Assembly: GCF_022548875.1 (NCBI RefSeq)
Contig: NZ_JAKZEW010000028.1
Span: 1-57,695 of the forward strand
Length of the DNA: 57,695 nucleotides
DNA from: Glycomyces sp. L485
Lineage (GTDB): Bacteria; Actinomycetota; Actinomycetes; Mycobacteriales; Micromonosporaceae
Direction of reading: 5' to 3'
The position numbers and the translations under genes are program-made. Below are positions 36,091 to 56,796 of the stretch, in pieces. The stretch's first letter is position 1; the number at the start of each line of letters is the position of its first letter. Below the pieces are notes generated by a model that worked only from the letters and a program-made list of their open reading frames with translations, was not told the DNA's origin and made no database searches.

Positions 36091-36795
36091 TCAGGCCCCG
36101 CGGCGGGAGGACTCGGCAGGTCGAGGCTCCGGCCCACTGTCCGTACGCGCGGCCACGGCGACGCTGGTGTGGACGCGGCCGCCCTCCCATTCCCAAGCGG
36201 CCTCCACCGCACGCGGCCCCGGCCAGCGTTCGAGATTCGCGGCGCCGATCTCCAAGACCATCGTCCCCGACCTGCCGGCTCGGTCGGTTCTGACGTCGGC
36301 GAGCCGGGCCCCGTCGAAGTCGAGCCAGATTCGCGTGGCCGGGTGCCAGGCCTTGAACAGCGACTCTTTCGCGCTGAAGGCCGTGACGGGGCCGTGCGGG
36401 CCCAGCCGGGCCGCGACTCGCCGCTCCTCGGGGTCGAGGACCGCCGCCGTCACCGACGCTCCGAGCACGGTCAGCGGCTCGGCGTCGATGCCGACCGCCG
36501 CCACCTCTCGGGCCCGGGCGACCGCTGCGGCGCGCAGGCCCTCGCAGTGCGTCAGGCTGCCGACCCATCCCGGCGGCCACACCGGGGCCCGGTCGGCGCC
36601 GACCGGCACGGCGACGGCGGGCCCGCCCGCCCGTGCCAGCGCCGCACGGGCCAGCGCCCGAGTGGTCGTGAACTCGCGCCGCCGAGACGCGACCGCTCCG
36701 GCGACCGCCTGGTGCTCCACCAGGGGCAGTTCCACGTGCGCATCGCAGGTCGCCCAGGCGAGCTGGACCTGATGGGGGAGTCCGGCGAACGACAT
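36091..36795 (-). CDS. 4'-phosphopantetheinyl transferase (Sfp/EntD type)
   Basis: This 234-residue enzyme activates carrier domains by adding the CoA phosphopantetheine arm. Motifs: PPGWVGSLTHCEGLRAAAVA, VAAVGIDAEPL (Mg-binding Asp-x-Glu) and VTAFSAKESLFKAWHP (WxxKEAxxK equivalent). It is likely dedicated to the five carrier domains in the two adjacent megasynthases plus ArCP. ATG at 36795 lies exactly 8 bp after TATCAT (36808-36803), so the mRNA is probably leaderless. The promoter contains metal box 2. Confidence 0.88.
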   Translation of the reverse strand: MSFAGLPHQVQLAWATCDAHVELPLVEHQAVAGAVASRRREFTTTRALARAALARAGGPAVAVPVGADRAPVWPPGWVGSLTHCEGLRAAAVARAREVAAVGIDAEPLTVLGASVTAAVLDPEERRVAARLGPHGPVTAFSAKESLFKAWHPATRIWLDFDGARLADVRTDRAGRSGTMVLEIGAANLERWPGPRAVEAAWEWEGGRVHTSVAVAARTDSGPEPRPAESSRRGA

Positions 36796-36798
36796 GTT

Positions 36799-36817
36799 TA
36801 AAATGATAATCAATTTC
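36799..36817. promoter_or_regulatory. Fur/Zur-type metal box 2 (divergent promoter)
   Basis: TAAAATGATAATCAATTTC matches 15 of 19 of the Fur consensus; the 7-1-7 core TGATAAT-C-AATTTCA also matches 13 of 15 of the actinobacterial Zur pattern TGAAAATCATTTTCA as I recall it. It overlaps the -10 of the PPTase and lies between that gene and the methyltransferase-PKS operon, so one site can control both. Confidence 0.7.
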
Positions 36818-36846
36818 ATTTAGTGTCGCGACCGAGGAGGCCGACC

Positions 36847-37986
36847 GTGAGAGACGCCGTCCGACGCGCCGCCGAGCGCGCCTGGGCCGAGGGCGAGCGG
36901 GCCCCCGTCGAACTCGACCGGGCCCGCGACCGGGCCAGCGCCGCCTCGATCGCGCGAGCGGTCCGCGACCTGTGCCCCGACGGCGTCCTCGACCCGGCCG
37001 CCCTGACCGCTGCGGGCGCCCTCGCCGAGCGCCACGCGCCCATCGTCGCCCGCTGGATCGACGAGCTCGAAATCCGCGGCCGACTGCGGGCCCGCCCCGC
37101 CGAAGGCGGCCGGACCGAACTGGAATGGCGGTGCGAGGCGCCGAGCCCCCGCGAGACCGCCGACGCCTGGGCCGAGGCCCGCTCCCACCGGTCCGGGGCC
37201 GCCCTGACCCGCTTCTTCGCCCGCGCCGCCGACCACCTCCCCGAACTGCTCGCCGACACCGTCCAAGCCCAGTCGCTCCTGTTCGAAGACGACGACGTGA
37301 CCGACGAGATCTACCGTTCCAACGAGGCCAGCCGCTACACCAACGCCGCCGCGGCCGCCGCCGTCCGCGCCCACCTCGAACCCCGCACCGCCACGGCCGT
37401 GTGGGAGATCGGCGGCGGCACCGGCGCGACCACCGAACCCGTCCTCGACGCCGTCCGCGACCTCGACCTGCGCTACCACTTCACCGACGTCGGCCGCTGG
37501 TTCCTCGATCAGGCCCTCGACCGCTGGGCCGGCCGGGCGGGCCTGACCACCGGCCTCGCCGACATCAACGACCCCGACCTGGCCTCGAACCTCGCGCTGC
37601 CTCCTGCCGGCGGCTACGACGTCGCGCTCGCCGCCAACGTCCTGCACAACGCCGCCGACCCCGCCCGCACCCTCACGGCCGTGGCCCGCGCCGTCGCCGA
37701 GGACGGCCTGCTGGTCATGATCGAGACCGCGCGCGAACACCTGCCCCTGCTGGTGTCGATGCGCTTCCTCATGTCGCCGCCCGGGCCCGGCGCCCGGTTC
37801 ACCGACCACCGCGCCGCCACCGGCCGTATCTTCCTCTCGCTGCCCGAATGGAAGGACGCGCTCGCCCGCTCCGGCTGGCGCCTCGACCTCACCGCCCCCG
37901 GACCCGACCCGTCGCACCCGGCGGCCCGATACGACCAGCACCTCCTCGTCGCACGCCGAGTCGCCCCCGAGATTGGAACAGCATGA
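36847..37986 (+). CDS. Stand-alone SAM methyltransferase of PKS-MT type
   Basis: This 379-residue protein resembles the C-methyltransferase domains of HMWP1-like PKSs: TAVWEIGGGTGATTEPVLDAV (SAM-binding motif I), RYHFTDVGRWFLDQAL and GGYDVALAANVLHNAAD (post-I/motif IV), plus an N-terminal helical region (NEASRYTNAAAAAAV) also typical of such domains. The start is GTG at 36847, 6 bp after GAGGAGG; GTG at 36823 is open upstream but badly spaced. The stop overlaps the PKS-NRPS start (ATGA). No MT domain lies in the PKS, so this free enzyme probably supplies the alpha-methyl group(s) in trans; inference. Confidence 0.85.
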   Translation: MRDAVRRAAERAWAEGERAPVELDRARDRASAASIARAVRDLCPDGVLDPAALTAAGALAERHAPIVARWIDELEIRGRLRARPAEGGRTELEWRCEAPSPRETADAWAEARSHRSGAALTRFFARAADHLPELLADTVQAQSLLFEDDDVTDEIYRSNEASRYTNAAAAAAVRAHLEPRTATAVWEIGGGTGATTEPVLDAVRDLDLRYHFTDVGRWFLDQALDRWAGRAGLTTGLADINDPDLASNLALPPAGGYDVALAANVLHNAADPARTLTAVARAVAEDGLLVMIETAREHLPLLVSMRFLMSPPGPGARFTDHRAATGRIFLSLPEWKDALARSGWRLDLTAPGPDPSHPAARYDQHLLVARRVAPEIGTA

Positions 37987-40900
37987 TCGAACAAGAGCAG
38001 CAGGTGGCCGTCGTCGCGATGAGCTGCCGGTTCCCCGACGCCGGAGACCCCGCCGCCTACTGGGACCTCATCCGCTCCGGACGCGACGGCCTCACCCGAC
38101 TCGACCCCGACCGCCTGCGCGCGGCGGGCGTGCCGCCGTCGCTGACCCGCCGCCCCGGTTACGTACCGGTCGCGGGCCTGCTCGACGACCCGACCGCGAC
38201 CGACCCCGCCGCCCTCGGCCTGTCCGAGACCGAGGCGACCCTCATGGACCCTCAGCAGCGGCTCTTCCTCGAATGCGCCGTCGAAGCGCTCGAAGCGTGC
38301 GGCCGCGCCGGCGGCGAACGCGGCGGCGCCACCGGCGTCTTCGCCGGGCAGTCCCTGCCGTCCTACCTGCTCGACAACCTCGGCCACCGCTTCCACCCCC
38401 GCGGCGGCGACGACCCGGTCGAGAGCCTCCACCTCCACGGCCTCAACGTCGCCGACTACCTCCCGCTGCGCACGGCCTGGCTGCTCGGGGCCACCGGACC
38501 GGCCGTAGCGGTCGGCGCCACCTGCGCCACCTCCCTGGTCGCCGTCCACACCGCCGTCGCCTCACTCCTGGCCTTCGAATGCGACACGGCGCTGGCCGGA
38601 GGCGTCACGCTGCGGCTGCCACAGGAGCACGGCTACTTCGCGGTGCCCGACGGACCGTTCTCGCCCGACGGGGCGACGCGCTCGTTCGGCGCAGGAGCGA
38701 ACGGCACCGTGTTCACCCAGGGGGCGGGCGCGGTCGTCCTGCGCCGCCTGCCCGACGCGCTCGCCGACGGCGACGAGATCCTCGCAGTCGTGCTCGGCAC
38801 CGCGGTGGGCAACGACGGCCGCGACCGTGTCGGCTTCACCGCGCCGTCGGTGGTCGGCCAGGCCCGCGTCGTCGCCGAGGCCCTCGACGTCGCCGACGTC
38901 GCCCCCGAGCAGGTCGGGCTGCTGGAAGGACACGGCACCGGGACCGCCCTCGGCGACCCCATCGAGGTCACCGCCCTCAACCAGGTCTTCGGCAGGGCCG
39001 AACGGCCGTGGTGCGCGCTCGGATCGGTGAAATCGCAGATCGGGCACACCGACGCCGCCGCCGGGATCGCCGGGTTCATCAAGGCCGTGCTCGCCGTCCG
39101 GCACGGCGAACTGCCGCCCGCCCCCGGCGCGCGCGAACCGAACCCCGACCTGCCCCTGGACGGATCGGCCTTCGAGCTGCTGCCCGAGGCGCGGCCGTGG
39201 CGGTCTCAGGAGCGGATCGCGGGGGTCAGCTCCTTCGGCATCGGGGGCGTCAACGCGCACGCCGTGATCGCCGGGCCGCCCCGGGCCCCCGTCCGCGCCG
39301 CATCAGCGACCGGCGGCGAGCCGGTCCTCCTCGTCCAGGCCGCCGACCGCGAGGCCCTCGACGCCCGCTCCGACCAGCTCACAGCGGAAGCCGCCACGCT
39401 GGAGGCCGACCGCCGCGCCGACCTGGCGGGCACGCTCGCGACCGGCGTCCGATCCCACCGCTGGCGCACCGCCGTGCTCGGCGGCCGGCGGCTTCCCGCC
39501 GCCGAGACCGCCACCGCGCCGCGGGTCGTCTTCGGCTTCCCCGGCGGCGGCGCCCAGTTCGCCGGCATGGCCGCCGGGCTCCACCGGCACGAACCGGTCT
39601 TCGCCGCCGCACTCGACCGGATCGCCGAGCGGCTCCGCGAGCGCACCGGCGCCGACCCGCGCGACATCGCCCTCGACCCCGCCGCGGTCGCGAACGACCC
39701 CGGCACCGGACTCCCGGCGCTGTTCGCCGTCGAACTGGCCGCCCACGAACTGCTCGCCTGGTACGGGCTCCGCCCCGACCTGGTCCTCGGGCACAGCCTC
39801 GGCGAATACGCGGCGGCCGTCGCCGCCGGAGCCCTCGACGAAGGCGAGGCGTGCCACCTCGTCGCCCGCCGCTCCGCGCTCATGGCCTCACTGCCCACCG
39901 GCGGCATGGTCGCCGTCGCCGCCGCCCCGGCCGACCTCGCCGAGCGGCTCCCGGCCCACCCCGAAGTGGACTTGGCCGCCGTCAACGGCCCCGCCTCATG
40001 CGTCCTCGCCGGACCACGGCACGCGGTCGAGGCCCTCACCGAGCGGCTGCGCGCCGACGGCTTCGACGCCAGGCCCGTCGGCGTCGCCGTCGCCGCCCAC
40101 TCCCGCCAGGTCGAACCGATCATGGACGCCTTCGCCGCCTCGCTCGGCGGCTTCCCGGAACGGACTCCGAGCCTGCCGCTGGTCACCACCGTGACCGGTG
40201 ACGTCCTCGACGGCCCGGTCGACCCCCGCCACTGGGTCCGGCACCTGCGCTCGACCGTCCACTTCGACCGGGCCCTGACCGCCGCCGCAGACGCCCCCGG
40301 AGACACCGTCCTCGTGCAGCCCGGCCCGGGCGCGAGCGTGCTCGCCGCCGCGGCACCGCTGGGACTGCGCGACCGCGTCGCCGTCCTCGCCGGGGCCGAC
40401 GAGGTCCACCGCCCGGACGCCGCGCCCGAGGCGCTGCGCCTGGGCCTGGCCCGATGCTGGAGCCACGGCGTCCCGGTCGACCTCGACAAGCTCGCCCCCC
40501 GGCACCGCTCCTACCCCGTCCCGGCCTACCCGTGGCGGCGCCGGGTCCTCGCCGAACCGCACCGGCTCCGCCCCGACGGGCGGCTCGGCCAAGGCGCGAC
40601 CGAGGCGGACGCGCCCTCGCCCGAGACCCCGCTCCAGCGCCCGACCTGGACGCGCGCCGAACCCGCCGCCGGCGACCCGGCCTCGCTCACCGGGCGCACC
40701 GTCCGCGTCACCGGACCTGCCCAAGACGTCGCCGAGGCCGCGCGGGCCCTCGAAGACGCCGGACTGCACCCGACCACCGGCACGGCCGACCTCGTGGTCG
40801 CCATCGCCGGTCCCGACCTCGCCGACGAGCTCGCACGCTGGAAGGACCTCGCCCGCGACCTCGGCGAAGCCCAGACCAGGCCGCCGCTGCTCCAGATCAC

Positions 40901-43900
40901 CCGAGGCGCGGAGTCGGTCCTCGGCACCGAACCGATCGACCCGGCATCGACCGCCGCGACCGGCCTCCCGCGCGTCCTCGCCCAAGAAGTCGACGGCGTC
41001 CGCTGGCGCACGCTCGACCTCGAACCCGACACGCGGCTCGACGCGGCCGCGCTCGTGCCCGAGCTCGCGGCACTGGCCGAATCCGAATCGGACCTCTCAC
41101 AGCACCTGGCGCTGCGCGGGCGGCACCGCTGGGTCCGATCCTGGACCCCCTGGCGGCCCGCCGGCCGTCCGACCGGCGGGCCGACCGACCGCGGCTGGTG
41201 GCTCGTGACCGGCGGATTCGGCAGCCTCGGACTCGCCCTCGCCGAGCACTTGATCGGCCTCGGCGCCGACCCCGACCGCATCGTCCTGGCCGGACGGACC
41301 ATTCCCGACCGCGACGGCCCGCGCGCCGAACGCTGGGCGCGCCTGGCCGGGCGCGGCGTACGGGGCAGCCGCGTCGACGTCACCGACGCCGACCGGCTGC
41401 GCGCCGTCGTCGGATCCCTCGCCGCCGAGCTCGGAGCGCCCGCCGCCGTCGTCCACGCGCCCGTCCAGATCGACCTCGCACCCCTGGCCGAACTCGACGC
41501 GCAAGCGATCGTGGCCGCACTCGGCCCGAAAGTGGACGGCGTCGAAAACCTCCAGGCGGCCCTCGCAGGCCACACCCCCGCCGTGCTCCTCATGTCGTCG
41601 GCCGCGGGCACCATCGGCGGCTTCGGGCTCGGCGCCTACGTCGCCGCGGGCCGCTACCTCGACGGCTTCGCCCAACGCCACGGCTGGCTCTCGGTCGGCT
41701 GGGACCGGCTGCGCCTGGGCACCCGCGAAGAGGCCGAAGCCGCCTCCGAGGTCAGCATGCGCCACGCACTCGACCTCGACGACGCCCTCCGGCAGATCGT
41801 GCTCCTGGCGGGCGCCGCCCCCGACGGCTACCTGGCCGCCTCGCCCACCGAACTCAACACCCGCTCGGCCCGCCTCGACACCGCCCGCCGCGTCTCCGCG
41901 GACTCCGGCACCGGCGAAGGCCAGGAACTCGACGCGTCCGAACAGATCGTCGCCGAAGTGTGGGGCCGCGTCCTCGGCAGGCCCGTGACCGGCCCCGACG
42001 ACGACTTCTTCGCGCTCGGCGGCCACTCCCTGCTCGCCACCCGCGTGCTCGCCGCCCTCCGCGACGAGCACGGCGTCGAACTGCGCCTCCGCGACCTCCT
42101 CGCCGCCCCGACCGTCCGCGGATGCGCGGCCCTCCTCGCCGATCGCACCGGGACCGCCGCCCCGGCCGAGACTCCGGAGCCAGGCCGCGGCGTCACGACC
42201 GGCTTCGGCCTGACCCGAGTGCAGCACGCCTACTGGCTGGGCCGCACCCGCGGCGTCGACCCGTCGCGGCCGAGCGGAGCCGAAGACGGCGTGGGATGCC
42301 ACTTCTTCCTCGAATACTCCGCAGACGACTTCGACCCAGGCCGCTACGAGGCTGCGTGGCGCGCCGTCATCGCGCGCCACCCCATGCTCCGCACCGTCAT
42401 CGACGGCTCCGGCCGCCACCGCCTGGTCGAGCCCGCCCCGGAGTTCACACTGCCGGTGCGCGACCTCACGGCCTTCGACGCGGCCGAGGCCGCCGAGCGG
42501 CTCGACCAGGTCCGGGCGCGGCTGTCGTCCCGCGTCGCCGAACCCGACCGCTGGCCGCTGCTGCACCCCGAGGCCGTCCTCCTCCCCGGCGGCGAAGCCC
42601 GGGTGCTGCTCTCGGTCGACGTCCTCGTCTGCGACTCCGCGAGCTGGATGATCGTCGACCGGGAACTGCGCGCGCACTACGAGAACCCCGCGATCGAGCT
42701 GCCGTCGGTGACGACCACGTTCGGCGACTGCGTCGAGGCTCTGGCGCGCGCCCAGGAAGGCCCCGAGCGCCGCCGCGCCGAGAAGTACTGGCTCGACCGC
42801 GTCGACGACCTCCCAGGCGCGCCCGCGATCCGCCACCCCGGCGCCGCCGGAGGCGCACCCCGCTTCACCCGGATCAGCGGCACCGTCCCCGCCTCCGCGT
42901 GGCGGCCCCTGGCCGAAGAGGCCGCGCGGCGGCGCCTGACCCCCACCGCCGTGGTCCTGTCCGCCTACCGCGACGTCCTCGCCGAATGGTCCGGCGACGA
43001 CCGGTTCAGCGTCACCCTCACCGTCTTCGACCGCCCCGAGCTGCCCGAGGTCGACCGGGTCGTCGGCGAGTTCTCGACCCTGCTCGTCCACGAGGTCGAA
43101 CCCGACCGGCCGGCGGACCGCTGGGAGCGGATCGCGACCGTGCAGGCGCGCCTGGTCGACGACCTCGACCACCGCGCCTACTCCGGCCTCGAAGTGCTCA
43201 CCGCCTGGTCTCGCGCCCGCGGCCGCACCGCCAACATCCCCGTCGTGTTCACCTCCATGCTCGGCCTCGACCGCTGGGCCGGCCAGGACGCCCACCGGCA
43301 CGACTGGCTCGGCGACCACGTCGGCGGCGTCAGTCAGACCCCGCAGGTGTGGCTCGACCACCAGGCCTTCGAGAACGACGGCGAACTCGTCCTCCAATGG
43401 GACGTGTGCGAGACCGAGATCGACCTCGACCAGGCCCGAACCTGGTTCGACCGATACCTCGAAGCCCTCGGCGGCAAGGCGGCCGAACCGGAGACCGGCA
43501 CCGCGGCACTCCTCGCACGGATCTGGGGCGACCTGCTGCACGTCGAACCCGACCGGATCGGCGAGAGCACCTTCCTCGCGCTCGGCGGCGATTCCCTCCT
43601 GGCCGTGCGCATGGCCGCCGAGATCCGCCGCACCACCGGAGTCGTCCTCGCGCTCGCCGACGTCCGCGCCGACCTGACCCTCGCCGAGCTGACCGCCCTC
43701 GTCGACGGCGCCGGAGCCGACGGACTGCCCGCGCTCACCCGCCGCGAGCACCCCGACGAGCCGTTCGAACTGCTCCCGCTCCAGCAGGCCTACTTCGTCG
43801 GCCAGTCCGGCGGCTGGGACATCTCCTACGACACCGTCCACGTCACCACCGACGTCGCCCTCGACGGCGTCCGCGCCGAAGGCCTGCGCGAGGCCCTCCA

Positions 43901-46262: not shown

Positions 46263-46736
46263 TCAGGAGCAGTGCGCGAGTGCGGCGAGCAGCCAGCGGG
46301 AGACCGGGGCGTCACCCAGCTCGGCCAGATCGCCGATCCAGCGGGCTTCGGCGAGTTCCGGGGAGAGCGAGAGGACGGCGGTGGCGGCGGTCGCGGTGAG
46401 GATCGTCAAGGTGTCGCGCTTGCCTTCGAGCGTGGTGACCACGGTGTCGAGCACCACGAAGCGGCTGGAGGGGACCTTGAGGCCGAGCTCCTCGCAGATC
46501 TCCCGCGACACTGCACTCTCCGGTGTCTCGCGGGAGGGTTCGAATCCGCCGCCGGGCAGTGCCCAACGACGGGTGTCGGCATAGGAGTGCCGGACGGCGA
46601 GGAACCGGCCCGAGCCGTCGGGATGGATCAGGAGCGCCTTGACCCCGAAGGTCTCGGGCTTGCGGATCCTCCACCACAACCGCACTGCCGGCGAGGCCGC
46701 GCGGAGTACCGGTGCGGGGAGCCGGACAGATTTCAT
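46263..46736 (-). CDS. NUDIX hydrolase
   Basis: This 157-residue protein has an exact Nudix box: G-x5-E-x7-REUxEExGU in GGFEPSRETPESAVSREICE plus ELGL, which binds the metal that activates water for pyrophosphate-bond cleavage. N-terminal half VKALLIHPDGSGRFLAVRHSY is typical. Substrate not predictable. It lies convergent to the PKS-NRPS gene, 9 bp away, and looks unrelated to the cluster. Confidence 0.85.
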   Translation of the reverse strand: MKSVRLPAPVLRAASPAVRLWWRIRKPETFGVKALLIHPDGSGRFLAVRHSYADTRRWALPGGGFEPSRETPESAVSREICEELGLKVPSSRFVVLDTVVTTLEGKRDTLTILTATAATAVLSLSPELAEARWIGDLAELGDAPVSRWLLAALAHCS

Positions 46737-46970: not shown

Positions 46971-47921
46971 TCAGGTGAGGAACAGCTGCTGCTCTATCCA
47001 GACGGCGGCGCGCTGGCCGTCGGCCACGGCGCCGGCGACGAACGCGGTCGGGGCCGGAGCTCCACGCTGGACCGCCGCATCGCCGGCGGCGAACACGCCC
47101 GCGTGGCTCGTCTCCATCGTCGGGCCGACGACCAGTAGACCCGAGACGTCGGTCTCGCATTCGAGCGCGGCGGCGAGGCCGTTGGACTGCTCGAAGTCCG
47201 GCCGGTGGAAGACCATTTCGGCGTCGAGGACCGTCCCGTCGGCCAGCTCGACGGCGGGAGCCCCGGCCGGTCCCGACAGCGCCGCGACCGGCTCGGCGAC
47301 GATGCGCACCCCGGCGGCGGCCGCCGCTTCGGCGACCTCGGGGTCGGGGCCGTGCCCGTTGGTGCAGACGGTGACCTCTTTGGAGAAGCGGTCGGCGAGG
47401 TAGCGCGCCAACATGGTGTCGACCGGTTGGGCCGAGACGACCACGATCCTGCGGCCGCGCGACTCGTATCCGTGGCAGTAGGCGCAGTGGGCCACGTCCG
47501 AACCCCATCTCTCGGCCAGCCCGGGAAGGCCGTCGAGCCGGTCGCGAACGCCCGAGGCCAGGAGCACCCGCCGGGCCCGCACCTGCCGGGCCGGGCCGTC
47601 CTCGGCCGGACCGACCGTCGCGACGAATCCGTTGTCGGCGGCCTCCAGGGCACTGACGCGGGCGGATTCGATCGCTACCTGCGGATGGCCGGCGATCTCC
47701 CCGCGGCCCAGCTCCCGGAACCGGCCGGGGCTCTCGCCGTCGCGGGTGAGGTACATGTGCATGTGCTCGGCGGGCGCGTTGCGAGGGCGGCCGTCGTCGA
47801 CCACCAGGACCCGGCGCTGCTGACGCCCGAGGACGAGTGCGGCCGAGAGCCCGGCCGGTCCGGCGCCTATCACGAGCACCTCCACGTCGTCGCCGTTCGA
47901 TGTGGGTGTCGTATCGGTCAT
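46971..47921 (-). CDS. Thioredoxin-reductase-like FAD oxidoreductase (CxxC)
   Basis: This 316-residue flavoprotein has the FAD Rossmann motif VEVLVIGAGPAGLSAALVLG, the redox-active VAHCAYCHGYE (CxxC), a second nucleotide-binding region GRRIVVVSAQPVD (lacking a full GxGxxG), and GVFAAGDAAVQRG near the C-terminus. The CxxCHG pattern is that of TrxR-like oxidases seen in sulfur-rich natural-product clusters such as GliT-type enzymes; in some of these the NADPH site is poor. Possible roles: protection or oxidation of thiol/thiazoline intermediates, or release of metal. It is last in an operon with the two ABC genes (ATGA overlap), so a metallophore role is likely but unproven. Confidence 0.8.
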   Translation of the reverse strand: MTDTTPTSNGDDVEVLVIGAGPAGLSAALVLGRQQRRVLVVDDGRPRNAPAEHMHMYLTRDGESPGRFRELGRGEIAGHPQVAIESARVSALEAADNGFVATVGPAEDGPARQVRARRVLLASGVRDRLDGLPGLAERWGSDVAHCAYCHGYESRGRRIVVVSAQPVDTMLARYLADRFSKEVTVCTNGHGPDPEVAEAAAAAGVRIVAEPVAALSGPAGAPAVELADGTVLDAEMVFHRPDFEQSNGLAAALECETDVSGLLVVGPTMETSHAGVFAAGDAAVQRGAPAPTAFVAGAVADGQRAAVWIEQQLFLT

Positions 47922-49654
47922 GTCGTCGCCTCCTGGCTCGTAGGTTCGGTGGTCGTGTGGGAGCCCCACAGGCTGCGGTAGGCGCCGGGCTGCGCCAGCA
48001 GCTCGTCGTGGCCGCCGCGTTGGACGATGCGGCCGCCGTCGAGGACGACGATCTGGTCGGCCTCCCGGACGCTTTCGAGTCTGTGGGCGGTCATGACGAC
48101 CGTCCGGCGACCCCGCAGCTGTGCGATGGCGTCGTCCACCACGCCCTGATGACGGGCGTCGAGGCCGGCGGTCGGCTCGTCGAGCAGCAGCACCGGTGCG
48201 TCGCGCAGCAGGGCGCGGGCGAGGCACACGCGCTGGCGTTCGCCTCCGGACAGGAGCCCGCCCGATTCGCCGACCGGCGAATCCAGGCCCTCCGGCAGGC
48301 GGCGCGCCACCTCCTCGAGCCCGGCGGCGCGGACGGCCGCGTCCACCTCGGCGTCGGTGGCCTCGGGGCGGGCGAGACGGACATTGCCGCGGATCGTGCC
48401 CTCGGCGAGCAGCGGCTCCTGGGGCACGAGGGCGAGGTGCCGCACCGTCTCGACGGTGCCGAGGTCACGCAGGTCGGCGCCGTCGAGCAGCACCGACCCC
48501 TCATCGGGGTCGGCGGCGCGGGCCAGCAACCCCAACAAGGTCGTCTTGCCCGAGCCGGAGGCGCCGACGACGGCGGTGCAGGTGCCCGGCTCGGCCACGA
48601 GGTCGATCCGGTCAAGCGCAGTGGTGCCGCCGTCGTGGCGGACGGTGACCGAGCAGAGCTCGATCCGGGCGGCCCCGGCATCGGAGGGACGCGCGAGCGG
48701 CCGGTCCGGTTCGGGCAGCGGCTCCAGGTCGAGGAACGCGCGCACCCGGTCGAGCGAGCCACGCGCGGTGCGGGTCGCGGCGCCCAGCTCGGCGGCCGAC
48801 CGCAGGCTCGCGACCAGCGCCGCCGCCAGCAGCAGGAGCACGGAGGCGTCCACGGCGGTGACGGATCCGGAGGCCGCGCGCACCGCCGCGACGGCGAGCA
48901 GCGCCGCCCCGGCGGACTGGACCGCGAGGGCGAAGACCGCTATCCCCGGTATGACCGAGCGGATGAGGTGCCCGCTGCGACCGGACGCCTCTACCAGCGC
49001 GGCGTCTGTCAGCCGCTCGGCGTGGCCCGGGTCGGGAGTGAGGCGGCTGACGCGCTGGATCTCGGCGAATTCGAGGACCCTGCCGGCGGCTTCGGCTCGC
49101 GCTTCGGCCAGTGCGGCGTCGCCCGAGGTCACGCGCCGCAGGCTCCAGCGGTGGCACCACAGCAGCAGCGGCAGCGTCGCCGCGGCGACCAGCCCGGTGA
49201 CCGGGTCGACCGCGAGCATCGCCGCGGCCAGAGCGACCGGCGTCGCCGCGGCCCGCACCGCCGGGAGCATGAGGTGGCCCGGGTAGGCCATCACCTCCAT
49301 GACCTGGCTCCCCGCCAGGCGACTGACCTCGCCGACGCGGCGTTGACCGAACCACCGCAGCGGCAGCCGGAGCAGGTGGTCGGCGGTGCGCCTGTGCAGA
49401 TCGAGCGAGAGCCCGTACCCGCATTCGCGAGCGAGCGAAGTAGCGGCGGCGGTCGCCGCGGCCCACAGGGCGGCGGCTGCGACCACCGCCCAGGCCGCCG
49501 TGGGCTCCCGGCCGTCGAGTAGCTGACCGGCGGGAGCGAGCAGGGACAGGATCGTGATCGCTTCGAGCGCGGAGGCTACTGCGGCGAGCGCGATCGCGGC
49601 GAGCATCCGCCGCCGTGAAGCCGGGTCGAGCAGGGGAAGCAGCCGTCTGATCAT
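47918..49654 (-). CDS. ABC half-transporter, membrane-ATPase (YbtQ/IrtB-like)
   Basis: This 578-residue protein is a type IV ABC half-transporter: six membrane helices in ~1-310 and a C-terminal ATPase with Walker A VGASGSGKTT, Q-loop VPQEPLL, signature LLSGGERQRVCLARAL, Walker B VLLLDEPTAGL and H-loop MTAHRLE. It overlaps its upstream partner (ATGA) and probably forms a heterodimer with it. In yersiniabactin (YbtPQ) and carboxymycobactin (IrtAB) systems such pairs import the metal-siderophore complex despite an exporter fold; export is the alternative here. Confidence 0.87.
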   Translation of the reverse strand: MIRRLLPLLDPASRRRMLAAIALAAVASALEAITILSLLAPAGQLLDGREPTAAWAVVAAAALWAAATAAATSLARECGYGLSLDLHRRTADHLLRLPLRWFGQRRVGEVSRLAGSQVMEVMAYPGHLMLPAVRAAATPVALAAAMLAVDPVTGLVAAATLPLLLWCHRWSLRRVTSGDAALAEARAEAAGRVLEFAEIQRVSRLTPDPGHAERLTDAALVEASGRSGHLIRSVIPGIAVFALAVQSAGAALLAVAAVRAASGSVTAVDASVLLLLAAALVASLRSAAELGAATRTARGSLDRVRAFLDLEPLPEPDRPLARPSDAGAARIELCSVTVRHDGGTTALDRIDLVAEPGTCTAVVGASGSGKTTLLGLLARAADPDEGSVLLDGADLRDLGTVETVRHLALVPQEPLLAEGTIRGNVRLARPEATDAEVDAAVRAAGLEEVARRLPEGLDSPVGESGGLLSGGERQRVCLARALLRDAPVLLLDEPTAGLDARHQGVVDDAIAQLRGRRTVVMTAHRLESVREADQIVVLDGGRIVQRGGHDELLAQPGAYRSLWGSHTTTEPTSQEATT

Positions 49655-51375
49655 GCCTGCGCCTCCGCGGGTTCGGCCCGGGCGTCGAGAAGGGCGGCGA
49701 ACGGGCCGCCCGAGGCCCGCAGCCGGCCGGGCGGGCCGCTGTCGACCACGCGGCCGCGGTCGAGCACGACGACGTGGTCGGCGGCGAGCGCGACCTCCAG
49801 TCGGTGGTCGGCGCGCACGACGGTGCATTCGGCCCGCAGCTCGGCGACCGCCCGGTCGATCAGTGCCGCGTTCGTCCGGTCGATCCAGGAGGAGGGCTCG
49901 TCCAGGATCAACAGGTCCGGTTCGGCGGCGAGGGCGCGGGCGAGGCACAGGCGCTGGCGTTCCCCGCCGGACAGTGCGATGTCGTCGCCGAGGACGGTGT
50001 CCTCGCCGTGCGGCAGCGTCCGGATCCGTTCGCCGAGCCCGACCGCGTCGAGGGCTTCGGCGCAGCGGCGCGAGTCGAGGCCGGGACGTCCGAGCCGCAG
50101 GTTGTCGAGCACGGTCCCGCGCACGAGCAGGGGCGTCTGCCAGACGGCCGCGACGCGGTCGGCGGTCCCTTCGCGACCGATCGCCTCAAGGGGCACGCCG
50201 TCGACGGCGATGGCGCCGGAGTCGGGTCGGACCAAGCCGGCCAGGCATTCGAGCAGGGTGCTCTTGCCCGCGCCGCTGCCGCCGACGACGACGGTGAGTC
50301 CTCCGGCCGGGCAGCGGAGCGCGATCTCGTCGAGGACGCGATGGCCTTCCAAGGTGAGTGTGAGCCCGTCGGCGTCGATGCCGGGGGTTCGGCCGGGCCA
50401 CGGCCGCCCGCCGCCGGGCTCGGGCCGCTCGTCCGGGGCCTCCATCAGGTCGCGCACACGGACCGCCGCGGCGGCGCCGACGGCGAGGTCCTGCGTGGCG
50501 AAGGCGATGGACGACAGCGGCGAGACGACGAACGGTGCGATGAGGGCGACGGCGATCGAGTCGGCGAGCCCGGTCGGGCCGTCGAGGGCGCCGGCGGCGA
50601 GGGCGCCGCCGAGGACGAAGAGCACGGCCGTGCCCGACAGCAGCACCTGTTGGGCGGTCATCGTGGGGGTCACGGTTCTGGCCCAGCCGCGCACGAAGTC
50701 GGCCCAGCCGCGGGCGGCGGCGGTGAACCGGTCGGTGCCGGCGCCGTAGACCTTGAGGACCGGCGCGGTCCTGGCGAGTTCGACCGCGGCCCGGTCGAGT
50801 TCGGCCCCGGCCGCCAGGTAGCGGCCCATCTGCTCGGGGAGACGGCGGCGCTGGCGGTGCTGGAGCAGCACCGCCAGCGCCGCCGGCGCGAGCGCGGCGA
50901 GGGCCAGCGGCGGCGAGACGGCCGCCATCAGCGTCAGCCCGGCCGCGACCGTGGCGGCCGAGGCGACCGCGTCGGGCAGGCCGTGGCCGATCACATGGTG
51001 GAGCGCGTCGACGTCCTCGCCGACGGCGCGTTTGACGGCGGTCGTGCCCTCCCGGTCGATCCAGGTGACCGGCCGCCGTCCGAAGACCGCGAGCGCACGG
51101 CGGCGCAAGGACAGCTGGAGGCAGTTGTCGGCCACGTGGAGCAGCCACGAGGACGCCGCGTGGGTCCCGGTGTGGAGCGCCGCCCCGCAGGCGGCGACGG
51201 CGATCCAGGTCCACGCCGTCTCCTGGGCCGCGGTGAAGTCGGCCACGAGGCGGCTCGCCGCGAAGACGGGGGCGAGCAGCGCGGTCGCGGCGACCGCTTC
51301 GAAGGCCAGTGCCGCCGCGACGAGGCCGCGCACGGGTCGCGTCAATCGGAGGAGCGCTCGAAGGGAGTCGGTCAC
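49651..51375 (-). CDS. ABC half-transporter, membrane-ATPase (YbtP/IrtA-like)
   Basis: This 574-residue half-transporter has an N-terminal six-helix region (~1-305) and an ATPase (Walker A GGSGAGKST, Q-loop WQTPLLVRG, LSGGERQRLCLARAL, Walker B LLILDEPSSWID, H-loop ADHRLE). The start is GTG at 51375, placed exactly 8 bp after TATCAT (51387-51382): a leaderless start like the PPTase. It is first in an operon with its partner and the CxxC flavoprotein, divergent from the NRPS gene and sharing metal box 3 with it. No IrtA-type siderophore-interacting (FAD) domain is present. Confidence 0.87.
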   Translation of the reverse strand: MTDSLRALLRLTRPVRGLVAAALAFEAVAATALLAPVFAASRLVADFTAAQETAWTWIAVAACGAALHTGTHAASSWLLHVADNCLQLSLRRRALAVFGRRPVTWIDREGTTAVKRAVGEDVDALHHVIGHGLPDAVASAATVAAGLTLMAAVSPPLALAALAPAALAVLLQHRQRRRLPEQMGRYLAAGAELDRAAVELARTAPVLKVYGAGTDRFTAAARGWADFVRGWARTVTPTMTAQQVLLSGTAVLFVLGGALAAGALDGPTGLADSIAVALIAPFVVSPLSSIAFATQDLAVGAAAAVRVRDLMEAPDERPEPGGGRPWPGRTPGIDADGLTLTLEGHRVLDEIALRCPAGGLTVVVGGSGAGKSTLLECLAGLVRPDSGAIAVDGVPLEAIGREGTADRVAAVWQTPLLVRGTVLDNLRLGRPGLDSRRCAEALDAVGLGERIRTLPHGEDTVLGDDIALSGGERQRLCLARALAAEPDLLILDEPSSWIDRTNAALIDRAVAELRAECTVVRADHRLEVALAADHVVVLDRGRVVDSGPPGRLRASGGPFAALLDARAEPAEAQA

Positions 51376-51383
51376 CGTGAAAT

Positions 51384-51402
51384 GATATCAATAATCATTA
51401 TC
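51384..51402. promoter_or_regulatory. Fur/Zur-type metal box 3 (divergent promoter)
   Basis: On the minus strand GATAATGATTATTGATATC matches 15 of 19 of the Fur consensus (first nine positions perfect); the 7-1-7 core is TGATAAT-G-ATTATTG. It overlaps the -10 of the ABC operon and lies just upstream of the NRPS ribosome site, so it would control both transcripts. Confidence 0.72.
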
Positions 51403-51435
51403 AATAAGATTTCCCATGGGACGGTGAAGCCGCAG

Positions 51436-54400
51436 ATGCGCAACGACAGCCCCGAGCCCGCCGCGCCGCCGCGCCGACTGCTCGCCGAGCAACTCGGCGT
51501 CGAGCCGCACGACCTGCCCGACGACCGCCCGCTCGCCGCCCTCGGCGTGGACTCCCTGACGGCCCTGCGCTGGCGATCGGCACTCGCCCGCGACACCGGC
51601 GTCACCGTCCCGCTCGTCGCCATGACCGGCGACCGGACCCTGCGCGAGGTCGCCGCGGCCTGGTCGGAGCAAGGCGCCGACGCGACCCCCGCCGCCTCCG
51701 GCGCCGACCCCGCGCCGCCCTCGCCGGTGCTGACCGAGGTGCAGCAGGCCTACTGGGCCGGCCGAGGCCGGGACTTCCCGCTCGGCGGCGTCGCCACCTT
51801 CTGGTACAACGAATACGACCGCGAACCCGACCGGTTCGCCGGGCGCACCGCCGAGGAGGACGTCGACCGGCTCGAACGCGCCTGGCGACGCGTCCTCGCC
51901 CGCCATCCCATGCTCCGCACCGTCATCGGACGCGACGCCGTGCCCAAAGTGGCCACCTACGACGTCCGCGACTTCCGCGTCGGCCGCGTCGACCTCCGCG
52001 ACGACCCCGCCTGGCGCGAACGCCTCGACGAACTGCGCCACGAGCTGTCGCACCAGTTGCGCCCCACCGACACCTGGCCGCTGTGCGACGTGACCGCCGT
52101 GCTCCTCCCCGAAGGCCGCGTCCGCTGGTGCGTCGGCCTCGACGCCCTCCTGGTCGACTTCGCCAGCTGGGGGTTGATCATGACCGAATGGGGCGCGATC
52201 GACCGCGAGCCCCACCGCCAACTCGACGAGCCGCCCGCCACCTTCGCCGAACTCCTCGCCGAGCGCGCCGCCGACCCCGACCGGCGCCTTGCCCGCGCAC
52301 GCGACCGCGACTGGTGGCGCGCCCGGGACCTCCCGCCCGCCCCGGGCCTCCCGCTCCACAGCCCACCCGAACGCGGCGCGCGCTTCCGCAGGCTCCGCCA
52401 CGTCGTCCCGGCCCAGACCTGGCAGGCCGTGCAGGCGCACGCCGCGACCGCCGGCGTCTCACCCACCACAGTGGTCTTGACGGCCTTCGCGCTGCTGTGT
52501 CAGCGCCGCAGCCAAGGACAGCGCGACCTGACCGTCAACCTCACCGTCTACGACCGCCCCGAGGTCCCCGGCATCGAACGCGTCGTCGGCGACTTCTCCG
52601 GCACCGCCCTGCTGGCGCTGCGCACGAACGACGGCATCGACGCGGCCGGCCCAGCCCCCTTCGCCGACCAGGCCCGCGCCGTGGGCCGGAACTTCTGGGA
52701 GGCCCTCGACCACCGCGCCTACAGCGGTGTCGAAGTGGCCCGCGACCGCGGCGACGGCGCCGCCTGGCCGATCGTGTTCACCTCCGGACTCGGACAGTCC
52801 TCGGCCGAAGCCGACCGGTGGCTCGGCGACCGCGTCTTCGGCGTCTCCCAGACACCCCAAGTCCTCCTCGACCACCTGGTCTGGGAAGAGGACGGCGACC
52901 TCGTGCTCGTCCACGACATGGTCGAGGGCGCCTACGCCGAGGGAGTCGTCGAAGGCCTCGCCGAAGCCGAACGCGCGCTCCTCGCCGGCCTTGCCGAAGC
53001 CGACCGATGGCACGAGCCCGGACCCGTGTGGGACCCCTCTGGCCTGGCCGCCGAACCGACCCCGCGCGACACCGAGGCCGGGCCGCTCCTGCACGACCTG
53101 TGGCGACATCACCTCGCCGAGCCCGCCCGCGGGGACACCCCGGCGGTCATCACCGCAGAGTCCGCCATCGGCCACCGCGAACTGCGACACCGCGCCAACC
53201 GTCTCGCCGCCCGCCTCCGCGAGGCCGGCGTGCGCACCGGCGACCTCGTCATGATCGCCCTGCCCAAATCCGCCGCACAAGCCGTCGCGGCCCTCGCCGT
53301 CGAGACCGCCGGAGCCGGATACGTCCCCGTCGACCCCGCCTGGCCCACCCGCCGCCTCGAAGCCGCCGCCCGCAAGACCGGCCTCACCTTCGCCGTGACA
53401 CAGGCCGGCACCGCGCCGGACCTGCCCGACGGCGTCCGAGGAGTCGGCGTCGACCTGCTCGGACGCGGACCCGAAGGCCCCCGGACCGAACCGGCCGCCG
53501 CATGGGACGCACGCGACGACGACCTCGCCTACGTCATCTTCACCTCAGGCTCCACCGGCGAACCCAAAGGCGTCGCCATCGAGCACCGCCAGGCCCGCGC
53601 AACCATCGACGACGTCAACGACCGCTTCGCGATCGGCGCGGCCGACCGCGTCCTCGCCGTTTCGGCGCTCTCCTTCGACCTGTCCGTCCACGACCTCTTC
53701 GGCACCATGGGCGCGGGCGGCGCGATCGTCGTGCCCGACGCGGCACGCGCCCGCGACCCCCAGCATTGGCTCGACCTGATGGGACGCCACCGCGTCACCG
53801 TCTGGAACTCCGCGCCGCCGCTGCTGGAGATGCTCGTCGAATACGCCGAAGCCGATCCCGGCGCCGCCGCTCGCGCGCTCGCCGCACTGCGGGTGTGCCT
53901 GCTTTCCGGAGACTGGATCCCGGTGACCCTGCCCGACCGGCTCCGCGCGCTCGCCCCGCACGCCGAGGTCCACAGCCTCGGCGGCGCGACCGAGGCCGCG
54001 ATCTGGTCGATCACCCACCCGATCGGCGAGGTCGACCCCCGCTGGGCGAGCATCCCCTATGGTCGCCCGCTGCGCGGCCAGTCCTTCCTCGTGCTCGACG
54101 AAGCGCTCGCACCGGTCCCGGCCGGCGTCGACGGCGAGCTGTTCATCGGCGGCGACGGCGTCGCCCAGGGCTACATCGGCGACCCCGGCATCACAGCGGA
54201 GCGGTTCATCGAACACCCCGCCCTCGGCCGACGCCTCTACCGCACCGGAGACCTGGGCCGGTGGCGACCCGACGGCACCCTCGAGTTCCTCGGGCGCGTC
54301 GACCGCCAGGTCAAGATCGGCGGCCACCGCATCGAACTGGGCGAAGTCGAGGCCGCGCTCTCGCGCCTGCCCGACGTCCGCCAGGCCCTCGTCTCGGCGA

Positions 54401-56796
54401 TGCCCGGACCGGACGGCCGAAAACGCCTCGTGGCCCACGTGGCGCGCCACCTCGGAGACACCGCCGAAGACGAGGACGCCTTCGCGGCCAGGCTGCTGGC
54501 CGAGCTGGGTGAGGAGGTCCCCGAGTACATGAAGCCGAGCCGACTCGTCGTCGTCGAGGCGCTCCCGGTGAGCGCCAACGGCAAGATCGACCCCGAACAG
54601 CTCGAGAACCCCTTCGCCCCGAAACGGAAGGAGCCGGAACCGGCAGACGCCGAAGCGGCCGATCCGCCCGCCGCCGAGCGCGAAGACCGGGCCGAGGACC
54701 CCGCACGGGCCGCGATCCTCACCGCGATCGGCCCCGACGTCGACCTCGACCGCGCACCCGTCGCCGCCGGACTGACGAGCCTGCAACTGGTGCGGATCGC
54801 CAACGCCGTCGAAGACGCCGGCCGAGACCGGCCCGCACTGACCGACCTGCTCGCCGCAACCTCGCTGCGGGCACTGGTCGACCAGTGGTCGGCCGCCGAC
54901 GACCCGGAAGCCCGACCTGACGCAACCCCCACCCCTGCCCCGCAACCCGCACCGCAACCTCCGACCGAGACGCCGAGCCCGCCCCGCACGACCGTCCCTG
55001 CCACGCCGGACGGACTCGCCGCCGAACTCAGGACACTGGCGGACCTGCTCGACGAGGTGTCGTCGCGCGCGGACGCGATCGGACTGCCGATCGAGATCGC
55101 CTCGCGGACCCGTCCGGCGCCGCCTCCCGCGGCACCCGCCAACCTCGCCGCCGTCGCGGCAGTCGAGGCCCCGATGACCGAGATGCAACTCGCCTACCTG
55201 GTCGGCCGCGCCCCGGACCGCGACGGCCGCGTCGCCGCGCCCCACTACTACACCGAGGCGCTGGTCGAGGACCTCGACCCCGCGAGGCTCGAACGGGCCT
55301 GGCGGACCGTCGTAGCCCGCCACCCGATGCTGCGCGCGGTCGTCACCGACGACAGCACTCAGCGCGTCCTCGAAACCACCGAGCCCGACCTCGAAGTCAT
55401 CGACGCCCGCGACCGCGCCCCGGCCGAGCAGCAGCGGCTGCGCGAGCGGCTGCGGCGCGAACGCTCGCACCGGTTGCTCTCGCCGCGGCGGGCACCCATG
55501 GCCGCCGCGGCCGCCGTCCGCCTCGACGACCGGCAGTGGCGGCTCCACCTCGACCTCGACCTGCTGTTCTTCGACGCCGAGAGCGCCTGCGTCTGGGTCG
55601 GCGAGCTGGCGACCGAATACGAACGGCCCGGTTCGCTGCCGCCCGCGCCCGCGACCGACTTCCTCGCCTGGGCCCGGGCCCTCGAACCCTCGCCCGAGGC
55701 ACTGGCCCACGCGCGACGTCAGGCCGCCGAGCTCCCTCCCGGGCCCGAGATCGGACGTCGGACGGACCCAGCGGCCGATCCCGCGGTGGTGCGTCGGCGC
55801 CGCTCATACTCGCAGGCGCAGTGGACGACCGTGCGCGAGCAGGCGCAACGCCAGGGAGTGACGCCTTCGGCGCTGCTGCTCGACCTGCTCGGCGGCGTCC
55901 TGGCGACCGAGAGCCGTCCGTCCGCGACCGTCGTTCTGACCGTGAGCGGACGACCGGCGGGCCACGGCGGCGTCGTCGGCGACTACACCTCGACCGTGCT
56001 GCTCGATCTCGCAGGCAGGACCGGGTCGAGCGCCGCCGAGTTGCAGGAGCGCCTGATGGCCGCGCTTGAACACGGCACCGGGCGCGGCGGCGTCCACGGC
56101 AACGAGGTCATCCGCCGGATGCGCGCCGAACACGTCGAAGTAGACCTCCCGGTCGCCGTGTCCGCCGCGCTCGAATCGTCCTCGATCGACGCCTCGCAGC
56201 TGCTGGAGGTGATCGGCAGGACGGAGTACGCGGTCAGCCAGACGCCGCAGGTGCTCGTCGACGTCCAGCTCTTCTGCGTCGAGGACCGCTTGGAGATCGT
56301 CCTCGACATCGACCAGTCGCGCGTGGACGCGGTCTGGGCGGACCGGATGTTCGCGTGCTTGACCGAGGGCATGGACGCGCTCGTGCTCGAACCTCCGCGG
56401 CGGTCGCGCCCGGATGACGCGGCCGAGGCGGTGCGCCGGGACGTGGCGGCGGTGTTCGGGGCACTCATCGACGCCGAGGCGACCGGAGACAAGAGCTGGT
56501 TCGACCTGGGCGCCACATCGCTGACGCTGGTGACGGCGCACCGGGAGTTGCGAGCACGTGGTCACGACGTCGACGTCGTCGACCTGTTCGCGCATCCGAG
56601 CCCAGCCGCGACCGTCGCACACCTCATCGGACTGCGAAGGCAGCCGGTTGAGACGCCGGAACCGATCGAGGAACGAGCCGCCGTCCGGCCACCTGAGGAG
56701 CGGCCTGCCGCACCGCCGGTCGAGCCGCGAATCCCGGTCCAGGCCTCGAGAGGAGCCAGAAGGCGCGCGGCCCGCCGCACTCGCGCGCAGGCATAG
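51436..56796 (+). CDS. NRPS: ArCP-Cy-A(Cys)-PCP-Cy-PCP (HMWP2-like)
   Basis: This 1786-residue protein mirrors yersiniabactin HMWP2. ArCP ~14-75 (Ser40 in LGVDSLTAL), Cy1 ~98-520 (D236-x4-D241-x2-S244), A ~565-1055 (YVIFTSGSTGEPKG; GATEAAIWS; YRTGDLGRW; NGK lysine), PCP1 (Ser1115), a Pro/Thr linker, Cy2 ~1244-1645 (D1375-x4-D1380-x2-S1383), PCP2 (Ser1695), and a basic tail. By alignment to PheA the A-domain code reads D-L-H-N-L-S-L-I-W-K, one change from the cysteine code DLYNLSLIWK. Unlike HMWP2 there is no epimerase insert in the A domain. ATG at 51436 has GGTGA upstream; GTG at 51424 is the alternative. The aryl starter must be loaded by an enzyme encoded elsewhere. Confidence 0.92.
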   Translation: MRNDSPEPAAPPRRLLAEQLGVEPHDLPDDRPLAALGVDSLTALRWRSALARDTGVTVPLVAMTGDRTLREVAAAWSEQGADATPAASGADPAPPSPVLTEVQQAYWAGRGRDFPLGGVATFWYNEYDREPDRFAGRTAEEDVDRLERAWRRVLARHPMLRTVIGRDAVPKVATYDVRDFRVGRVDLRDDPAWRERLDELRHELSHQLRPTDTWPLCDVTAVLLPEGRVRWCVGLDALLVDFASWGLIMTEWGAIDREPHRQLDEPPATFAELLAERAADPDRRLARARDRDWWRARDLPPAPGLPLHSPPERGARFRRLRHVVPAQTWQAVQAHAATAGVSPTTVVLTAFALLCQRRSQGQRDLTVNLTVYDRPEVPGIERVVGDFSGTALLALRTNDGIDAAGPAPFADQARAVGRNFWEALDHRAYSGVEVARDRGDGAAWPIVFTSGLGQSSAEADRWLGDRVFGVSQTPQVLLDHLVWEEDGDLVLVHDMVEGAYAEGVVEGLAEAERALLAGLAEADRWHEPGPVWDPSGLAAEPTPRDTEAGPLLHDLWRHHLAEPARGDTPAVITAESAIGHRELRHRANRLAARLREAGVRTGDLVMIALPKSAAQAVAALAVETAGAGYVPVDPAWPTRRLEAAARKTGLTFAVTQAGTAPDLPDGVRGVGVDLLGRGPEGPRTEPAAAWDARDDDLAYVIFTSGSTGEPKGVAIEHRQARATIDDVNDRFAIGAADRVLAVSALSFDLSVHDLFGTMGAGGAIVVPDAARARDPQHWLDLMGRHRVTVWNSAPPLLEMLVEYAEADPGAAARALAALRVCLLSGDWIPVTLPDRLRALAPHAEVHSLGGATEAAIWSITHPIGEVDPRWASIPYGRPLRGQSFLVLDEALAPVPAGVDGELFIGGDGVAQGYIGDPGITAERFIEHPALGRRLYRTGDLGRWRPDGTLEFLGRVDRQVKIGGHRIELGEVEAALSRLPDVRQALVSAMPGPDGRKRLVAHVARHLGDTAEDEDAFAARLLAELGEEVPEYMKPSRLVVVEALPVSANGKIDPEQLENPFAPKRKEPEPADAEAADPPAAEREDRAEDPARAAILTAIGPDVDLDRAPVAAGLTSLQLVRIANAVEDAGRDRPALTDLLAATSLRALVDQWSAADDPEARPDATPTPAPQPAPQPPTETPSPPRTTVPATPDGLAAELRTLADLLDEVSSRADAIGLPIEIASRTRPAPPPAAPANLAAVAAVEAPMTEMQLAYLVGRAPDRDGRVAAPHYYTEALVEDLDPARLERAWRTVVARHPMLRAVVTDDSTQRVLETTEPDLEVIDARDRAPAEQQRLRERLRRERSHRLLSPRRAPMAAAAAVRLDDRQWRLHLDLDLLFFDAESACVWVGELATEYERPGSLPPAPATDFLAWARALEPSPEALAHARRQAAELPPGPEIGRRTDPAADPAVVRRRRSYSQAQWTTVREQAQRQGVTPSALLLDLLGGVLATESRPSATVVLTVSGRPAGHGGVVGDYTSTVLLDLAGRTGSSAAELQERLMAALEHGTGRGGVHGNEVIRRMRAEHVEVDLPVAVSAALESSSIDASQLLEVIGRTEYAVSQTPQVLVDVQLFCVEDRLEIVLDIDQSRVDAVWADRMFACLTEGMDALVLEPPRRSRPDDAAEAVRRDVAAVFGALIDAEATGDKSWFDLGATSLTLVTAHRELRARGHDVDVVDLFAHPSPAATVAHLIGLRRQPVETPEPIEERAAVRPPEERPAAPPVEPRIPVQASRGARRRAARRTRAQA

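Follow-up and report, generated by a model that had tools for sequence, protein, structure and literature searches.

We analysed a 57,695-nucleotide stretch of the genome of the actinomycete Glycomyces sp. L485 (positions 1-57695 of one contig, hereafter the window) and predict, with reasonable though not high confidence, that it carries a Zur-controlled zincophore locus rather than an iron siderophore locus. On balance we favor a zinc-starvation locus that would both make and re-import a Cys-derived, thiazoline-rich metallophore. Its assembly line consists of a nonribosomal peptide synthetase (NRPS) and a polyketide synthase-NRPS hybrid (PKS-NRPS) and is accompanied by Zur-type operators, a NikA-type importer operon, and a flavoprotein related to dithiol oxidases. 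The hybrid contains an unusual cyclization (Cy) domain, here called CyX, which belongs to a clade with a replaced catalytic dyad. An earlier description made from the letters of this DNA (the sequence-only reading) had not noted the operators, the importer, the dithiol-oxidase kinship of the flavoprotein, or the CyX clade with its replaced dyad. The genome comprises 4.42 Mb in 151 contigs and is 98.7% complete; because the contig (58034 bases) stops 339 bases after the window, further cluster genes may sit on another contig or in a gap.

Operators and the predicted metal

The G+C content of the window is about 67-77%, and three AT-rich 15-base near-palindromes lie in the promoters of the locus, at 30694, 36804, and 51389; 100 shuffles yielded none. 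We scanned the whole genome with the pattern TGATAATNATTATCA and scored sites with a position weight matrix (PWM) built only from three sites outside the window (on contigs C51, C106, and C123). The best-scoring window position outside the three promoters reaches 11.4. With at most two mismatches to the pattern, four distinct sites exist in the whole genome, three of them in the cluster, and the fourth (C51:11827) precedes genes for ZnuA, an ABC ATPase, an ABC-3 permease, an ArsR-type protein, and a FUR-family protein. At up to three mismatches, 16 matches per strand were found versus 2 for a backward-pattern control. Ten further three-mismatch sites lie outside the window; the four inspected include one flanked by ribosomal L28/L33/S14 paralogues on one side and a cobW gene on the other (C106), and one ahead of a cobW gene (C123:33419). 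The window operators have the 7-1-7 form and fit the published actinobacterial Zur motif, taaTGaNAANNNTTNtCANta (PMC5472717), and the cluster promoters share this site with the znu genes and ribosomal paralogues.

The operators recur in the 63 non-redundant relatives of the cluster described below: 50 have a site of at least 16 bits upstream of core genes, whereas 200 column-permuted PWMs found such a site in 1.5 relatives on average and in 19 at most. ZnuA-like, cobW-like, Fur/Zur-like, and His-rich genes stand around some relatives (named by eye, with ZnuA near L092 assigned by Pfam). No DtxR-type iron box was found in the locus, and the single match in the window, at 746, is at chance level. 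Elsewhere in the genome, three such boxes have one mismatch, and at up to two mismatches there are 9 per strand versus 3 for the control.

The assembly line and its CyX domain

Gene calling, Pfam, and carrier and domain motifs confirmed both megasynthases in the order given by the sequence-only reading, ArCP-Cy-A-PCP-Cy-PCP for the NRPS and KS-AT-KR-ACP-Cy-PCP-Cy*-PCP-TE for the PKS-NRPS. Besides KS, AT, KR, and TE, Pfam recognizes three PP-binding and two condensation stretches in the PKS-NRPS, and motifs place ACP at 42006, Cy3 at 42618, PCP3 at 43572, CyX at 44172, PCP4 at 45252, and TE at 45675. For the NRPS, Pfam reports a single A domain plus two stretches each of the condensation and PP-binding kinds; carrier motifs lie at 51532, 54760, and 56497, and one of these three carriers is supported by its motif and not by Pfam. 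The A-domain code, read by eye as D-L-H-N-L-S-L-I, is identical except at position 239 to the D-L-Y-N-L-S-L-I listed for several Cys domains (table of PMC3672683), and by this code the single A domain is of the Cys type. Together with the module order, this agrees with the yersiniabactin-like, Cys-based line that had been proposed. Methylation in trans, likewise expected, is matched by a stand-alone PKS-type C-methyltransferase, whose NVLH-motif His is kept in all 60 relatives with a match (63 examined). The accessory genes said to lie between the megasynthases are all present, except that those for the 4'-phosphopantetheinyl transferase (PPTase) and the methyltransferase actually stand ahead of the PKS gene.

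The last Cy domain had been flagged as defective, and its first Asp is indeed lost. By sequence CyX is a Cy-family member, matching EpoB Cy at 1.6e-37 and HMWP2 entry 7ry6 at 3.3e-33. Of 63 copies, 62 are readable at DxxxxDxxS, and none of these has the first Asp: 59 carry Ser there and three carry Asn, and all 62 keep the DGWS part of the motif. The putative cyclodehydration dyad of HMWP2 Cy2 is T1830/D1862 (PMC9547227), and our alignment of CyX reproduces its 32-residue spacing. At these positions CyX has Gln for Thr in 57 of 58 readable copies (of 63) and Glu for Asp in all 58. Cy3 keeps Thr and Asp in 39/39 readable copies (of 50) and Cy1 in 20/20 (of 21), and Cy2 has Ser and Asp in 4/4 (of 5) as well as in the window. 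A 100/100 branch separates CyX from all other members of a 76-sequence tree, and, as judged from these alignments, CyX is a conserved clade of its own. Since the replacement is joint and nearly strict, a changed reaction would account for it better than decay, and CyX probably joins the last residue without ring closure. The dyad replacement is a stronger argument for this than the loss in DxxxxD, whose Asp residues have been assigned a structural role (PMC9547227).

The best PDB matches of the flavoprotein are 4ntd (1.2e-39), 3fbs (2e-39), DepH (9e-38), 4fk1 (1.1e-36), and GliT (2e-35), and the next entry called a thioredoxin reductase matches at 8e-16. PDB labels 4ntd as a thioredoxin reductase, 3fbs as an uncharacterised oxidoreductase, and 4fk1 as a putative thioredoxin reductase; 4ntd is presumably HlmI. 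HlmI, DepH, and GliT are the closest characterized sequences, and a CxxCHGYE-type motif is common to them and the window protein. The CxxC is present in 40/40 relatives with a match (63 examined), and inspection of the window protein by eye did not reveal the glycine motif that usually binds NADPH. DepH, GliT, and HlmI serve romidepsin, gliotoxin, and holomycin, which are antibiotics or toxins, whereas the flavoprotein of the window, whose activity is predicted, adjoins metal-uptake genes. Its kinship suggests that the product may contain a disulfide.

The aryl cap proposed in the sequence-only reading found no counterpart in the genome. Neither a DhbE/YbtE-type ligase (TIGR02275 best 98.2 bits, cut-off 723.55) nor a salicylate synthase (TIGR03494 best 117.5 bits, cut-off 325.15) scored over cut-off, in an assembly whose completeness is as given above and whose cluster lies at a contig end, and we therefore rejected a salicylate or dihydroxybenzoate starter. 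The 117.5-bit match is a TrpE-like gene in the window, a TrpE-GATase fusion at 23671-25773, which was rejected as a salicylate source: it lies beyond ileS, has none of operators A, B, or C nearby, and falls below the cut-off. Among relatives from the same family, the best ligase match in the one-contig genome G010 is 173.8 bits, the ligase of G084 is over cut-off, and those of G014 and G030 (636-658 bits) are under it; the ligases of these last three genomes lie away from the cluster, beside isochorismate-synthase-like matches. The first NRPS carrier matches PKS ACPs at 1e-5 and the HMWP2 ArCP at 0.49 in PDB, weak evidence that we dropped as a starter clue because the scores are uninformative. 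Cys as the starter on this carrier is a possibility.

Proposed pathway and competing readings

From the genes, domain order, three Zur-type operators, and altered CyX active site that can be read from the sequence, we infer the product, its metal binding, and the CyX chemistry as follows. When zinc is short, release of Zur from its operators would switch on the importer, methyltransferase/PKS, PPTase, NRPS, and flavoprotein/ABC genes. The lone Cys-type A domain would load Cys onto the PCPs, in trans for those of the PKS protein, and Cy1 and Cy2 would close two thiazolines. KS-AT-KR would then add a reduced, C-methylated ketide and Cy3 would close a third thiazoline, after which CyX, with its first Asp and Thr-Asp dyad lost, would attach the last residue, probably Cys, as an amide or thioester with no ring. 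TE would release the chain, the dithiol-oxidase-like flavoprotein would oxidize the remaining thiol or thiols, and the zinc complex would re-enter via the NikA-type importer, the ABC pair, or both. If CyX leaves a free thiol, this would explain the dithiol-oxidase-like gene and suggest zinc scavenging by a thiol or disulfide. In its boldest form, the proposal would make CyX a new functional class of Cy-derived domain that places an uncyclised terminal Cys and that, combined with a dithiol oxidase and a starter that is not aryl but possibly cysteinyl, yields a family of disulfide-caged thiol zincophores across Actinomycetota; we offer this version tentatively and expect at least part of it to fail. 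What a Cy domain does when its ring-closure residues are replaced, and replaced alike nearly everywhere, is a testable question of chemistry.

The megasynthase architecture would also suit a salicyl-capped iron siderophore of the yersiniabactin/piscibactin type, in which case the Zur-type boxes would be secondary or mis-assigned Fur-type boxes. IrtAB and YbtQ are among the closest bacterial half-transporters in the matches listed, and a comparable Corynebacterium diphtheriae locus answers to iron through DtxR (PMC6711530). However, the cluster lacks a DtxR-type box in a genome that has such boxes, the same operator box precedes znu-type genes, and neither a DhbE/YbtE-type ligase (98 bits versus 723.55) nor a salicylate synthase is over cut-off in the genome, so that we consider an iron siderophore quite unlikely. 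That DepH, GliT, and 4ntd, with their roles in romidepsin, gliotoxin, and holomycin, are among the sequences closest to the flavoprotein raises the idea of a disulfide antibiotic, with genes linked to zinc stress, in place of a scavenger; the fact that the importer genes, too, follow a Zur-type operator, and the 23 of 64 loci in which the flavoprotein was not seen, make such a role very improbable. We give similarly little credence to a nickel, cobalt, or copper metallophore, to which the NikA-type importer and the position of the G014 cluster beside cytochrome bd genes could point, as the operator matches that before znu-type and ribosomal-paralogue genes and a similar Staphylococcus aureus transporter serves the zinc metallophore staphylopine (PMC6711530). 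A further alternative keeps the zinc locus but has CyX, with its Gln-Glu pair, close a fourth thiazoline, giving a tetra-thiazoline without a free thiol. The almost strict conservation of the replaced residues implies selection and a probably active CyX, the domain is still recognizably of the Cy type by its EpoB match, and mutation of the first Asp in PxbG Cy4 only halved the attributed product (PMC9396620). Mutations of the Thr-Asp dyad, by contrast, severely hit cyclodehydration in the Cy domains studied (PMC9547227), and in CyX three active-site positions are altered together, which makes ring closure by CyX unlikely in our view.

Several observations weigh against the zincophore reading that we prefer. 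Two of the four inspected three-mismatch operator sites (L128, L129) have no zinc-type gene nearby, and 13/63 relatives have no site at 16 bits, including L042, L047, and G030, which have the module order of the window; in four of these 13 (L065, L068, L069, L087), strong sites lie inside mis-called genes. The flavoprotein and a match to the substrate-binding protein (SBP) of the importer are each present in 41/64 loci and neither is universal, in counts for which the flanks were often limited to 10 kb. The uncharacterised 3fbs and 4fk1 score as well against the flavoprotein as the dithiol oxidases do, and loss of the first Asp of CyX alone says little, given the structural role of DxxxxD. The closest solved relatives of the SBP are AgaA, AapF, and other peptide-, opine-, or nickel-type proteins, not metallophore binders by name, so its ligand is not readable from kinship. 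Among NCBIfam models, the ABC pair is best matched by MsbA (47918-49606) and CydD (49651-51333), both under cut-off, and two-copy eukaryotic exporters rank above IrtAB in PDB, which leaves transport in either direction compatible with its kinship. Lastly, the cluster of G014 (L030 14055-16684) lies directly downstream of cydA and cydB (cytochrome bd) and an ABC gene, which could point to copper.

Distribution, known counterparts, and neighboring genes

A single-protein query gave no relative, and an alignment-based scan of 84,980 species genomes (pattern plus tblastn) recovered 60 loci, whose titles name Actinomycetota and which span Streptomyces, Salinispora, Amycolatopsis, Brevibacterium, and others. 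The CyX region also has matches in 4/149 other family genomes (G014, G030, G010, and G084) and none in 15 listed genomes of the same genus, with at most five candidates scored per genome. One of the 60 loci (L070) is the G030 contig, which leaves 63 non-redundant relatives, or 64 loci with the window. In an order-wide sample of 397 genomes, the CyX profile scores more than 500 bits in at least eight (the genome of the window among them), a lower bound as at most three candidates were scored per genome, and the next score is 376 bits. This score, found in L147 and L148 (genomes G178 and G208), falls between true CyX and ordinary Cy domains and could mark an older branch. L098, titled as a Rhodococcus metagenome-assembled genome, is labelled Cyanobacteriota in the tree and has long branches, possibly reflecting a mislabelled or mixed bin. 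The full PKS-NRPS order of the window, called new in the sequence-only reading, is found in 11/63 relatives, while PCP-CyX-PCP was scored as apart from Cy3 in 51/64 loci (window counted), some of them at contig ends. Where the two are apart, 35 relatives have a saccharopine-dehydrogenase-like gene and 30 have a second methyltransferase. A KAS III-like gene is found in nine relatives, seven with the fused type of the window (Pfam: L045 17946-18953, L033 15149-16171), and none was seen in the window.

Zinc metallophores traced to an NRPS/PKS origin are, to our knowledge, few; the window suggests a whole family of such loci, and the 60 in public genomes offer places to look for a product. As far as the literature searched goes, the spread of this family in Actinomycetota, the CyX clade, and the apparent link to a dithiol-oxidase-like gene are new, and no open-licence paper that we found describes the CyX clusters as making a zincophore in Streptomyces, Salinispora, or similar genera. 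The coelibactin locus of Streptomyces coelicolor differs from the window in gene content. It is similarly a Zur-controlled NRPS locus in an actinomycete, for a Zur-repressed zincophore (PMC5472717). A close parallel in gene content is C. diphtheriae cdtPQ-sidAB with its neighboring NikA-type operon dip2162-2165, which likewise combines an NRPS and a PKS with a yersiniabactin-transport-like ABC pair, a NikA/OppA-type importer, and zinc/Zur control (PMC6711530, PMC12445094), a likeness drawn from the published description only. That locus is zinc- and Zur-repressed, with no product identified in the account excerpted, and also answers to iron through DtxR (PMC6711530), and sid is one of six loci that sustain growth when zinc is scarce (PMC12445094). 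Unlike the window it has a DtxR site, and a flavoprotein, methyltransferase, and CyX go unmentioned in the excerpted description.

Contrary to the sequence-only reading, which knew of no characterized relative, the photoxenobactin/piscibactin proteins PxbG/Irp1 lack cMT1 and have an extra Cy4-A2-T6 followed by TE (PMC9396620; full order inferred from the text). This line (PxbF/PxbG, Irp2/Irp1) resembles the window in lacking cMT1 and having an extra Cy-T module, but differs in its second A domain, embedded cMT, PxbJ (salicylate), and PxbH reductase (PMC9396620). It uses four Cys, with Cy4 proposed to form only a thioester, and yields a dithioperoxoate product; this Cy4 keeps the first Asp of its C3 motif, unlike CyX (PMC9396620). 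The window instead has Cy-PCP-CyX-PCP-TE, with no second A domain or embedded cMT. Yersiniabactin HMWP2 shares with the window ArCP-Cy-A-PCP-Cy-PCP and a single Cys-type A domain that supplies PCPs in trans. Compared with HMWP2/HMWP1, however, the window lacks embedded MT domains and adds CyX-PCP, so that the HMWP1 order KS-AT-MT-KR-ACP-Cy-MT-PCP-TE is not reproduced; judging from Pfam spacing, its A domain has no insert either, it has Zur-type operators in addition, and no salicylate enzymes were found. Pfam recognized no thiazolinyl reductase YbtU among the scanned window genes, the rest of the genome not having been searched for it. Yersiniabactin has a reported role in zinc uptake (cited in PMC6711530). 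We rejected the kineochelin and equibactin systems as members of the same family, to judge from excerpts of their descriptions.

The locus extends upstream of 36091, with the NikA-type importer operon at 30787-35524 behind the same type of operator (Table 1). The SBP starts at GTG 30787, preceded by GGAGG (by eye), with Pfam run from 30847, and matches the NikA model at 8e-33, far under cut-off. Homologues of the importer operon adjoin CyX genes in relatives; 38/41 SBP matches have at least 43% identity and three (L066, L096, L100) have 28-30%.

Table 1 Features of the predicted zincophore locus, with examples of further genes in relatives
Feature	Position	Strand	Evidence
Zur-type operator A (TGACAATGGTTATCA), ahead of importer operon	30694-30708	+	PWM score 24.9
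NikA/Opp-type substrate-binding lipoprotein (SBP)	30787-32319	+	SBP_bac_5 2e-76
NikB-like permease	32322-33233	+	BPD_transp_1
Fused NikC-NikD-NikE-like permease/ATPase	33344-35524	+	BPD_transp_1 + two ABC_tran stretches
PPTase	36091-36819	-	4PPT_N 1.5e-23, ACPS
Zur-type operator B, between PPTase and methyltransferase/PKS genes	36804-36818	+	PWM score 24.3
Stand-alone PKS-type C-methyltransferase, overlaps PKS start	36847-37986	+	Methyltransf_12; best PDB match CurJ 2.3e-16
PKS-NRPS, KS-AT-KR-ACP-Cy3-PCP3-CyX-PCP4-TE	37983-46253	+	Pfam + motifs
CyX domain, SLHIMDGWS for DxxxxDxxS, Gln + Glu for Thr-Asp dyad	43722-45062	+	Alignments
NUDIX hydrolase gene within locus	46263-46685	-	Pfam
TrxR-like flavoprotein, dithiol-oxidase type, CAYCHGYE	46971-47885	-	PDB matches
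ABC half-transporter; top bacterial half-transporter matches IrtB, YbtQ	47918-49606	-	PDB, among 60 matches listed
ABC half-transporter; top bacterial half-transporter match IrtA	49651-51333	-	PDB, among 60 matches listed
Zur-type operator C, between ABC gene and NRPS	51389-51403	+	PWM score 19.9
NRPS, N-terminal carrier (ArCP)-Cy1-A(Cys)-PCP1-Cy2-PCP2	51424-56796	+	Pfam + motifs
Saccharopine-dehydrogenase-like/second-methyltransferase genes, examples in relatives	L092 13123-14178; L040 5060-6118; L053 11926-13008		

Outside the locus, the fused TrpE-GATase gene, anthranilate-synthase-like and on the minus strand, adjoins RibD_C and 2-hydroxyacid dehydrogenase genes. Window positions 8339-20732 hold genes of purine/urate catabolism, namely a PucR regulator, OHCU decarboxylase, uricase, xanthine-dehydrogenase parts, amidohydrolases, and allantoicase.

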